Part shown: positions 1,072 to 49,215 of the stretch, piece after piece
Position numbering within the stretch: the first letter of the stretch is position 1
Layout of the letters: each line of letters begins with the position of its first letter
Assembly: GCA_013150955.1 (NCBI GenBank)
Contig: JAADJD010000032.1
Location: 1-62,061 of the forward strand
Direction of reading: 5' to 3'
DNA: 62,061 nt
Source: Calditrichota bacterium
GTDB taxonomy: Bacteria > Calditrichota > Calditrichia > RBG-13-44-9 > J042
Program-made: the position numbers and the translations under genes
The notes under the pieces: generated by a model
Told to the model about the DNA's origin: nothing
Databases searched by the model: none
What the model saw: only the letters and a program-made list of their open reading frames with translations

Positions 1072-1235
1072 CCCAGATCATGCAATAGCCTACGAATTAC
1101 ACGAATTAAAACGAATAAAAATAATAAAATCCATTTGATGATAGCTGGATAAAATGTGTTTCAGGGTTTATTCGCGATTTTGTAGATATTTTTTGGCTTC
1201 ATTCGCGTGATTCGTGGGTGAACGCATTATTTGGG
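1072..1235. repeat. MITE-like element, copy 1
   Basis: Full-length copy (164 bp) of the interspersed family. Left end CCCAGATCATGCAATAG, right end GCATTATTTGGG. The element is flanked on both sides by TTTAA (1067-1071 and 1236-1240), a 5-bp direct repeat read as a target-site duplication. The imperfect terminal inverted repeats extend about 35 bases into the element (CCTACGAATTACACGAAT on the left against ATTCGCGTGATTCGTGG on the right). The short ORFs crossing it are spurious. Confidence 0.85.
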
Positions 1236-26835: not shown

Positions 26836-27011
26836 CCCAGATTAAGCAATAGCCTACGAATGACACGAATTAACACGAATAAAACCAATAAAATACATTG
26901 GATTGTGTCCGGATGAAAATGTGTTGAAAATGTGTTCCAGGGTTTATTCGCGATTTTGTAGATATTTTTTGGTTTCATTCGCGTGATTCGTGGTTTATTA
27001 CATAATTTGGG
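26836..27011. repeat. MITE-like element, copy 7
   Basis: Left end CCCAGATTAAGCAATAG, right end ACATAATTTGGG, with the exact flanking repeat TTCAA (26831-26835, 27012-27016). An internal short duplication (GAAAATGTGTT twice) makes this copy 176 bp. It ends 21 bases from the stop of the Crp/Fnr gene. Confidence 0.85.
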
Positions 27012-27730: not shown

Positions 27731-27944
27731 GCTTCATCTGGGTGTTCGTTTAAAATGTCCATAACAAATTTTCAAACAAGGATGTCTTAAATGCAATGAT
27801 ATTAATCAGCCGAAATTATGACATTTGACATATTTTATGGAGCAATACTGTCGCTCGATTTTTTCAGAGTCGGCAGGTTCCTTCTGTATCCCGCAAAGCA
27901 GAAAACGGAGGCCTGTTTATTTACCGGTGCGCATCGTTCCAATA

Positions 27945-28580
27945 TGATCAGGGCAGGCGCAGGCTTCATGCCTGCGCATTCCAAAGTAACCCGACTCTCC
28001 CGAGTCGGTCGTCCCGCAAGGCGGGACGTGTATTGATCATTGCCCACTGCCAATTGCCTACTGAATTGTAGCCCGACTCTCCAGAGTCGGTCGTCCCGCG
28101 AAGCGGGACGTATGTTGATCATCACGTTTGTTTGGTTGCGTATACGCACAGGCATATCGCCTGCGTTTGCCAGATTCTGGGTGGGTATACCCATAAACGG
28201 TAAGCATTTCGTTTTGGGAAGATGAATCCGTTTTAACAGGCGGTGGCATAACCGCGGGCATAAAGCCCGCGGCTACCCTTGCCCACTGTCTACTGCCAAC
28301 TGCCTACTGAACTGTAGCTCGACTCTCCAGAGTCGGTCGTCCCGCAAGGCGGGACGTGTATTGATCATTGCCCACTGCCAATTGCCTACTGGAAAATGGG
28401 CGTAAAGCCCGCGGCTACCCTTGCCTACTGCCTACTGCCAACTGCACACTGAACTGTAGCCCGACTCTCCAGAGTCGGTCGTCCCGCAAAGCGGGACGTG
28501 TATTGATCATTGCCCACTGCCAATTGCTAACTGCAAACTGCACACTGCCAACTGGACCAACGCCTGCGGCTACCAGGACC
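27945..28580. repeat. Block of double-hairpin (REP-like) repeats
   Basis: Four copies of a module (near 27988, 28068, 28316 and 28456). Each is made of GTAGCCCGACTCTCC-AGAGTCGG, a palindrome, followed by GTCCCGCAAGGCGGGAC, a second palindrome. Then come GTATTGATCATTGCC and a run of YACTGCC heptamers. Between them are further hairpins such as CCGCGGGC-ATAAA-GCCCGCGG (28252-28272) and GCAGGC/GCCTGC around 27950-27980. The whole 890-base gap between the two Crp/Fnr genes contains no plausible gene. One more copy is at 48.74 kb. Confidence 0.85.
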
Positions 28581-32064: not shown

Positions 32065-32371
32065 TCCACAAGAGGGAACCAATCACCTTTCAGAAACCGG
32101 GACAATCAATTGAGAACACCATACTGCTGGGATCCTGTTAGGGTGTGGATTCGGTCACTGTGTAGTTCCCCACGGAATGAAGCAGGTGTCCTGCAGGTTT
32201 TGGGTATTCAACTGTGAAACCATGCGGTATTTTCGATACACCACGCTGTCCCATTCCGGAAAATTGTCCAGCATGCTTCCACTTTCACGAACCAGAGGGG
32301 CGGTTTCCTGAACCAAATTTTTCACACAACGCCAATTCCACAGCCAATTGAAAATGAGGTGTTATCATAAA

Positions 32372-32705
32372 CCCGGATTATGCTTGAAACCACGAATTAC
32401 ACGAATGAACACAAATGAAATCAACAAAATCCATTGGATTATGTCGGGATAAAAATTTGTTGCGGGGTTTATCCCAGATTATGCAATAGCCTACGAATTA
32501 CACGAATGAACACAAATAAAACCAATATAATACATTGGATTGTTTCTGGATGAAAATGTGTTTCAAGGTTTATTCGCGATTTTTTGGATATTTTTTGTTT
32601 CATTCGTGTGATTCGCGGTTTATTGTATAATTTGGGTTTATTCGCGATTTTGTGGATATTTTCAGGATTCATTCGCGTGATTCGCCGTTCAACGCGTCAT
32701 TTGGA
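32372..32705. repeat. Nested MITE-like elements, copies 9 and 10
   Basis: The outer copy is split. Its left half runs from CCCGGATTATGC (32372) to GGGGTTTAT, and its right half resumes TTTATTCGCGATTTTG and ends CATTTGGA (32705). A full second copy (CCCAGATTATGC to AATTTGGG, 32473-32636) is inserted in its middle. The inserted copy has TTTAT on both sides (32468-32472, 32637-32641) and the outer copy has ATAAA on both sides (32367-32371, 32706-32710). This nesting fits transposition in two steps. Confidence 0.88.
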
Positions 32706-32727
32706 ATAAACAATAGAGGAGGTTCTT

Positions 32728-33716: not shown

Positions 33717-33985
33717 CCCGGATTATGCATTAGACCGCGAATTGCACGAATGAACACAAATAAAAATAATCCCAGATTATGCATTAGACCACGAATTGCA
33801 CGAATTAACACAAATAAAAATAATCAAATACATTAGATCAGATCTGGATGAAAATTCGTTTTTCGAGGTTTCTTCGTGATTTTATTGATGTATTTTGGTT
33901 TCATTCGCGTGATTCGTGGTTTGATGCATTATTTGAGTTTATTTGTGTCCATTCGTGTCATTCGCGGTTTAAAACACAATCTGGG
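33717..33985. repeat. Composite MITE-like element, copy 11, at a stop codon
   Basis: An outer left end (CCCGGATTATGCATTAG, 33717) is followed after 54 bases by a complete copy (CCCAGATTATGC at 33771 to GCATTATTTGAG at 33937). An extra reversed arm ending ACAATCTGGG (33985) follows. The whole composite is flanked by TTTAA (33712-33716, 33986-33990), and the right duplication contains the TAA stop of the minus-strand M20 peptidase gene. Bases 33622-33711 show no gene. Confidence 0.82.
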
Positions 33986-35473: not shown

Positions 35474-35639
35474 CCCAGATTATACATTAGCCTACGAATG
35501 ACACGAATTAACACCAATAAAAATAATAGAATACACTGGATTCTATCCTGGATGAAAATGTTTTCCCAGATATATTCGCTATTTTGTTGATTTTTTTCGA
35601 ATTCATTCGCGTGATTCGTGTTTTAACACATTATTTGGG
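35474..35639. repeat. MITE-like element, copy 12
   Basis: Left end CCCAGATTATACATTAG, right end CACATTATTTGGG, with exact flanking TTCAT repeats (35469-35473, 35640-35644). It lies 20 bases upstream of the M20 peptidase start. Between 35645 and 35809 nothing gene-like is seen. Confidence 0.85.
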
Positions 35640-40422: not shown

Positions 40423-40759
40423 AGCGCCCCCTCCATTTCATCTAAACATCTTTCTTTTCTTGCTTTCGCGATTCTTAAAAGGTTAATCGAAGCGATTTCA
40501 ACCGAAATCGGGCCGGTGTTCTGGACAAAAACGTGCAAAACGTTAAAAGTGGAAGCCTGCGGACAAGTGGATGCAAGGCTGGATAAAATATCAAATCTAT
40601 CATTGAAAAGACCCGACTTATTCAGTGAATCCCGTCAAAAATACAAGCCATAACATAATTATCTGAGGGCAATTTATCAAGAAGAGAAAGAGAAAAGCCG
40701 GGAAAATCTTTTGAGGGAAGGACGCAATGTGTCTGAATTTGATGTTTATATCAACTTCA

Positions 40760-41017
40760 ATGTTGCATGAAACCACAAATCACGCGAATGAATTCGAATA
40801 ATCCCAAATAATGCATTAAACCGCGAATCACACGAATGAAACCAGAAAATACCTACAAAATCGCGAATATATCCAGGGAAACATTTTCATCCAGATACAA
40901 TCCAATGTACTTTATTTGTTTTATTTGTGTTAATTCGTGTAATTCGTGGTCTAATGCATTATTTGGGTTTATTTGTGTGAATTCGCGTCATTCGTAGGAT
41001 AATGCACATCATCCGGG
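40760..41017. repeat. Composite MITE-like element, copy 14 (inverted)
   Basis: A full copy (CCCAAATAATGC at 40803 to GCATTATTTGGG at 40967) carries an extra left arm (TGTTGCATGAAACCAC to TCGAATAAT) and an extra right arm (TTTATTTGTGTG to CATCATCCGGG). The junctions AATAAT|CCC and GGG|TTTATT are the same as in the composite at 33.7 kb. The stretch 40423-40759 has no gene. Confidence 0.78.
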
Positions 41018-48498: not shown

Positions 48499-49215
48499 GT
48501 TCTGAGATTCCCACCGCCTCCTTTTTTAATCTATTGATTTTATTGAATAAATCTCAAAAAGTTCGTGATTGCAAACACGAATTTAATTTACGGGAACCGA
48601 ATCATTTTTCCAATATGTCGCCTGGAGATTTGGGAGCCATCAGGGCGTATTCTTCATGCCATGGAGTTAAAATTCTGCGAAGGGCGGGGGAGGGAGGCTA
48701 CCGATTTGAGAGAATTGGGCGAGAATTTAGTAGGCAATTGGCAGTGGGCAATGATCAATACACGTCCCGCTCTTCGGGACGACCGACTCTGGAGAGTCGG
48801 GCTACAATTCAGTAGGCAATTGGCAGTGGGTAAGGGTAGCCGCGGGCTTTACGCCTGCGGGACAATAAACGAAAGGAAATGGAGAATGACCCGCACGCAT
48901 AAATAAACCCAAATAATGCAATAAACCGCGAATCATGCAAATGAAACCAAAAAATATCTACAAAATCGCGAATAAACCCTGGAACACATTTTCGTCCAGA
49001 CACAATCCAATGTATTTTATTGGTTTTATTTGTGTTCATTCGTGTAATTCGTAGGCCATTGCATCATTTGGATAAAATATAGCCTCTCCCGCACTGCGGG
49101 AGAGGCTAACGACTCTGGAGAGTTGGGTTACATTGGAAAGCACAGGCATAAAGCCTGCGCCTACCACTCCTTATTCCCCTATTTCCCTATTCCCTTATAC
49201 CCCTATATTCCCTTT
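48499..49215. repeat. Repeat-rich intergenic region: hairpin repeat and MITE-like copy 15
   Basis: No gene is visible. An inverted copy of the double-hairpin module is at about 48738-48815 (GTCCCGCTCTTCGGGAC and CCGACTCTGGAGAGTCGG with heptamers). A CCGCGGGC/GCCTGCGG-type hairpin is near 48840. A MITE-like copy runs 48908-49071 (CCCAAATAATGC to CATCATTTGG), flanked by ATAAA on both sides (48903-48907, 49072-49076) if one terminal G is lost. Further short hairpins (CTCCCGCACTGCGGGAG near 49087, CAGGCATAAAGCCTG near 49143) precede the next gene's stop. Confidence 0.8.

Follow-up and report, generated by a model that had tools for sequence, protein, structure and literature searches.

A MITE-like repeat nested within a copy of its own family in a Calditrichota genome, with a resident IS1380-family element as its probable partner

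Introduction

In bacteria, MITEs that share their terminal repeats with a resident IS are called 'type I' MITEs in a passage of PMC3542288, and according to a passage of PMC3281130 MITEs may occupy up to 2% of a bacterial genome. The same part of PMC3281130 gives 5-bp direct repeats for IS1247, a published element of the IS1380 family. The repeat family described here resembles type I bacterial MITEs in being short and non-coding, in its terminal inverted repeats and target duplications, in its hundreds of intergenic copies and in sharing its ends with an IS of the same genome. It differs from them in taking up about 4% of the sampled sequence, against the figure of up to 2% in that passage of PMC3281130, and in having several independent nests at one internal site. 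Its probable partner is like the IS1380 family in its transposase, which scores above the NCBIfam cut-off, and in its ends, which start with CC; the 5-bp duplication of the MITE is also that given for IS1247 in the passage of PMC3281130. Unlike IS1380 elements, the MITE is devoid of genes; it has only its 17 terminal bases in common with the resident IS, from which its ACGAAT-rich arms do not come. The open-licence literature, searched for the letters of the repeat and, by titles and the beginnings of abstracts, for this MITE family, yielded no description of it.

The locus lies in the window, the whole stretch of 62,061 nucleotides analysed (contig JAADJD010000032.1 of the Calditrichota bacterium assembly GCA_013150955.1).

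Structure of the nested locus

The nested locus consists of the following features:

32367 to 32371, plus strand: ATAAA, 5-bp target duplication to the left of the outer element (direct sequence reading)
32372 to 32472, plus strand: left part of the outer MITE, model positions 1-101 (sequence reading and profile match)
32468 to 32472, plus strand: first TTTAT, the last 5 bp of the outer left part (sequence reading)
32473 to 32636, plus strand: inner complete MITE of 164 bp, CCCAGATTATGCAATAG ... GTATAATTTGGG (sequence reading and profile match)
32637 to 32641, plus strand: second TTTAT, the target duplication from the inner element (sequence reading)
32642 to 32705, plus strand: right part of the outer MITE, model positions 102-165, ending in TTTGGA (sequence reading and profile match)
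32706 to 32710, plus strand: ATAAA, 5-bp target duplication to the right of the outer element (sequence reading)

Read directly, the outer left part terminates in GGGGTTTAT, and the inner element starts with CCCAGATT and ends with AATTTGGG. Removal of the insert and one TTTAT leaves an outer element of 165 nt without a gap, which is the length of the family consensus. Around the insert, the outer copy aligns to model positions 1-102 and 94-164, the overlap corresponding to the duplicated 5 bp and a few bases that match by chance. The final bases of the outer copy are GGA, not GGG. The initial annotation had placed one repeat inside another at 32367-32710, with TTTAT on both sides of the insert and ATAAA on both sides of the outer copy; this is borne out to the base, and the coordinates, with both outer duplications included, are exact. 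Its restoration of an uninterrupted element likewise stands, the rejoined 165 nt being free of the gap that it had named as contrary evidence. The mobility it had claimed is upheld by exact target duplications at both levels, by the gap-free rejoining and by the same architecture at independent sites.

The single-strand fold of the inner copy has a z-score of -8.4. The window had no Rfam match at the gathering score, and RNAalifold gave no conserved end-to-end stem and no conserved fold for the inverted repeat. A role as RNA was rejected on these two results, and the repeat is therefore treated as a DNA element.

The repeat family

A profile built from the window copies was applied to a further 400 kb of the genome as well; in the total of 462,061 bases it has 164 non-overlapping matches, 80 of them near full length. 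The family makes up 4.06% of this sequence (4.8% of the window and 3.6%, 3.7% and 7.0% of contigs C29, C20 and C40, respectively). Extrapolation to the 4.07-Mb assembly, from sampled contigs that were chosen for having hits, gives about 1,400 matches and about 700 full copies; a genome-wide search with the model scored 150 candidates, which is not a full family count. The 165-bp consensus, with CCCAGATTATGCATTAG at its start and TTTAATGCATTATTTGGG at its end, contains an imperfect inverted repeat over about 50 bp, and the copies diverge from it by 14% on average.

The target duplication of the family is 5 bp long, with the pattern WTNAW. Exact identity of the 5-bp flanks is found for 30 of 81 near full-length copies; when the flanks were re-paired 2000 times, the mean was 6.7 and no trial exceeded 15. 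Each of the other lengths (2-4 and 6-10 bp) is found for 0-3 of the 81. Intact flanks are seen, for example, around three single copies in the window:

1072 to 1235, plus strand: single family copy, TTTAA on both sides (profile match)
26836 to 27011, plus strand: single family copy, TTCAA on both sides (profile match)
35474 to 35639, plus strand: single family copy, TTCAT on both sides (profile match)

Genes are avoided, just 3 of 80 full copies lying mostly within an ORF of at least 120 aa; such ORFs hold 8,242 of the 11,097 WTNAW sites (74%). The family accounts for about 29% of the intergenic DNA in the sample (18,760 of 65,570 bases). The repeat is thus MITE-like: short, non-coding, with terminal inverted repeats and a target duplication, and present in high copy number.

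Another repeat family, of about 142 bp and unrelated to this one, is also present in the window, with several copies in a row at 27928-28539 and inverted copies some 20 kb away at 48700-48833.

Other nests and relative age

The matches in the 462 kb form 90 clusters, 44 of which hold more than one match. A full copy lies between two halves of another in 15 candidates. Ten of these are clean nests, in which the outer halves meet almost or entirely without a gap (rejoined lengths of 152 to 167 nt); the 5-bp flanks are identical in seven of them and agree at 4 of 5 positions in the remaining three. The insertion sites, around model positions 44, 53, 97, 109 and 113, conform to WTNAW or nearly so. 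Four of the ten nests share one orientation and one internal TTTAT, at about model position 97; they are separate events, since their inner and outer copies have different nearest relatives. The five remaining candidates, in which the middle of the outer copy is missing and the flanks match at 2-3 of 5 bases, were not accepted as clean nests. Two clusters in the window that are not clean nests are:

33717 to 33985, strand not assigned: full copy between two end fragments (profile match)
40759 to 41017, minus strand: full copy between two end fragments, flanks matching at 3 of 5 bases (profile match)

A recurrent pattern, seen in many clusters (for instance L032-L040 and C29), is a full copy preceded by the element's first 48 bp, both in one orientation. 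These clusters are perhaps nests trimmed by recombination between direct repeats.

As a reference for age we used the consensus of 70 full copies, excluding nest inserts. The mean distance to this consensus is 0.112 for inner copies, 0.160 for outer copies and 0.142 for the 70 copies themselves. The relative age order suggested by the initial annotation was put to the divergence check it had proposed and is upheld: in the window nest the inner copy is at 0.098 and the outer at 0.164, and across the ten nests the inner copy is nearer the consensus in nine, with one tie. If each copy is instead compared with the 70 others and the distances are averaged, the inner copy is nearer in eight of the ten. 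The trend towards a younger inner copy is clear, yet not universal across the nests.

A candidate partner of the IS1380 family

The source genome encodes an IS1380-family transposase (G000:C18:3-1085) that matches NF033539 with 219.4 bits, against a cut-off of 180, and also PF13701. Its gene lies behind the terminus CCCAGATTACGCAATAG, and the right ends of the IS finish in CTAATGCGTAATCTGGG. Five left ends (one a remnant) and five right ends were found on contigs. Because the assembly breaks inside the IS, the two sides of single copies are unpaired; the left flanks are TTTAA in four of five cases and AGATT in one, and the right flanks TTTAA in three of five, TTAAA in one and ATAAT in one. This prevalence of TTTAA would fit the target duplication of the MITE. 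Where seen, the copies are near-identical, with 100% identity over 86 bp in three contig ends and 95% in the remnant. The one readable copy, on contig C18, appears frameshifted, judging by two overlapping frames. A second CCCAGATT is located directly upstream of the end of this copy (L051 1381-1430).

The right end of the IS and the left end of the MITE have 16 of 17 bases in common and little beyond. Allowing up to 3 mismatches, the 17-mer of the IS occurs 87 times within MITE copies and once outside them in the 462 kb. As the two share the 17-bp end and no interior, the MITE is not a simple deletion derivative of the IS. From these ends, the multi-copy IS1380-family IS of the same genome is probably the driver of the MITE. 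The present IS may nevertheless be younger than most MITE copies, since its copies are near-identical and those of the MITE are 14% diverged; an older relative may have made most of the MITE insertions.

Seven PF01609 transposase loci are present in the genome, and MITE-like ends were found only at the IS1380 one. Two of the others were read in detail: a transposase on contig C4, which we take to be IS982-like, and a degraded one on contig C8, presumably IS5-like. Neither is bounded by family ends. The family copies near the other PF01609 transposases are ordinary copies or fragments, and these transposases were rejected as partners. Separately, a DDE_Tnp_1 transposase remnant with two in-frame stops lies at the start of the contig (window 182-529), and its relative on contig C8 (L049) is also degraded.

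Related genomes

The comparison covered 40 genomes of the class; a search at the level of the phylum likewise covered 40. Some family match is present in 12 of 40 genomes; outside the source genome the matches are weak and number at most 13 per genome, and the burst of family copies is confined to the source genome among the 40. The transposase is likewise found at high identity only in the source genome among 40, with distant IS1380 relatives in G017 (26-34% identity) and G016 (one, at 27%). In G017, one of these has TTTAA on both sides and another does not.

In G001, the one genus-mate among the genomes compared, the neighbouring genes of the locus are in the same order, and the corresponding 8-kb stretch contains no family copy (nothing better than E 0.94). 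The comparison with related strains proposed earlier thus succeeded in part: the genus-mate has no copy between conserved neighbours, but the spacer is too diverged for an empty site to be defined at the level of the base. Elsewhere in this genome (L042 2441-2747) there is one related element, 307 bp long and flanked on either side by ATAAT, which is perhaps another nest. Its middle differs from that of the window family, being a palindromic-looking sequence of the ACAAAG type.

The inner arm in other phyla

The ACGAAT-rich inner arm corresponds to a non-coding motif of 27 bp, CCACGAATNACACGAATNAACACNAAT, with 24 fixed bases. It is present in many unrelated genomes, in at least 94 stretches, 80 of them among the matches listed (L072-L151); by their titles we take those listed to span about 16 phyla. 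As most are metagenome bins, misbinning is possible; isolates, such as Flavobacterium foetidum, also carry the motif. A shorter form, CCACGAATNACACGAATNAACAC, is found in 2 of the 40 genomes of the phylum, 123 times in the source genome and 4 times in G016, and its reversed control in none. The first 23 positions of the arm are common to these repeats and the window family (for example, window 32390-32412). Unlike the window family, the pan-bacterial copies start directly at CCACG, without the CCCAGAT end. An inverted partner lies within 400 nt at 35 of the 80 listed foreign arm loci, and these loci have no convincing target duplication, again unlike the window family. In the open-licence literature we found no published name for palindromic repeats with CCACGAATNACACGAATNAACACNAAT arms.

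It is possible, and we put it forward tentatively and with more doubt than conviction, that a frame of the IS1380 type (17-bp ends and 5-bp duplication) captured the arms of this palindromic repeat, near-unchanged across about 16 phyla, and that the capture led, in this lineage, to the burst of about 1,400 copies and fragments.

Mechanism and alternatives

Duplication pairs, exact rejoining, recurrence elsewhere and the order of divergence establish two insertions at the locus. Very probably these were successive insertions of one MITE family, moved in trans by an IS1380-family transposase. The older copy would have entered an ATAAA site between two genes, and a second copy would later have entered the internal TTTAT of the older one, duplicating those 5 bases. 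From the sequences we infer that the enzyme, a DDE transposase, is encoded by the IS of which this genome still has several copies; it would recognise the shared 17-bp terminal repeat CCCAGATTAYGCAWTAG and cut WTNAW targets with a 5-bp stagger. Nests would arise because WTNAW sites are plentiful in the element, which itself accounts for so much of the intergenic DNA, and no special self-targeting needs to be invoked. Among the points against the IS1380 reading, an exact duplication survives in only 30 of the 81 copies; the lack of a shared interior, the apparent frameshift of the readable IS copy and the unpaired IS flanks also weigh against it. The MITE might instead have been moved by another transposase, lost or unsampled, whose ends would be similar and whose stagger would also be 5 bp; the IS1380 copies would then be late arrivals or descendants. 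The 14% average divergence of the MITEs, set against the almost identical IS copies, would fit such a history; the match of the MITE ends, and apparently of its target preference, to the resident IS, and the restriction of MITE-like ends to the C18 locus among the seven PF01609 loci, speak against it, and we consider it unlikely.

The other alternatives concern the nesting itself. Recombination between family copies, by unequal exchange or gene conversion, could give a nested look without insertion, and the five of 15 candidates with the outer middle missing and unmatched flanks, as well as the frequent clusters of the left 48 bp plus a full copy, suggest that recombination also acts on the family. 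A 5-bp direct repeat, however, is not a product of recombination, and inner and outer copies are 0.16-0.28 apart and have different nearest relatives; a tandem or gene-conversion origin was rejected on these distances and relatives, and recombination, contradicted for the ten clean nests, is extremely improbable as their source. The nested pair might also be a composite that moved as one unit and was copied to four places with the same nest site. The internal site and orientation common to four nests would be expected of it, but the nearest relatives differ among the four inner and the four outer copies, so they were not copied together, making a composite very unlikely. Successive insertion thus accounts for the nests, and the element probably behaves as an ordinary MITE whose IS1380 partner can be identified, the nesting being real but ordinary.

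Significance

The presence of the inner arm in many phyla raises the question of how so short a sequence is kept almost unchanged across such distant lineages; if the capture reading is true, the palindromic repeat would be a genetic element of wide distribution in its own right. For the MITE family, the nests provide a relative clock and an empty site within the genome, and since the partner IS can be named, its mobilisation in trans is directly testable.
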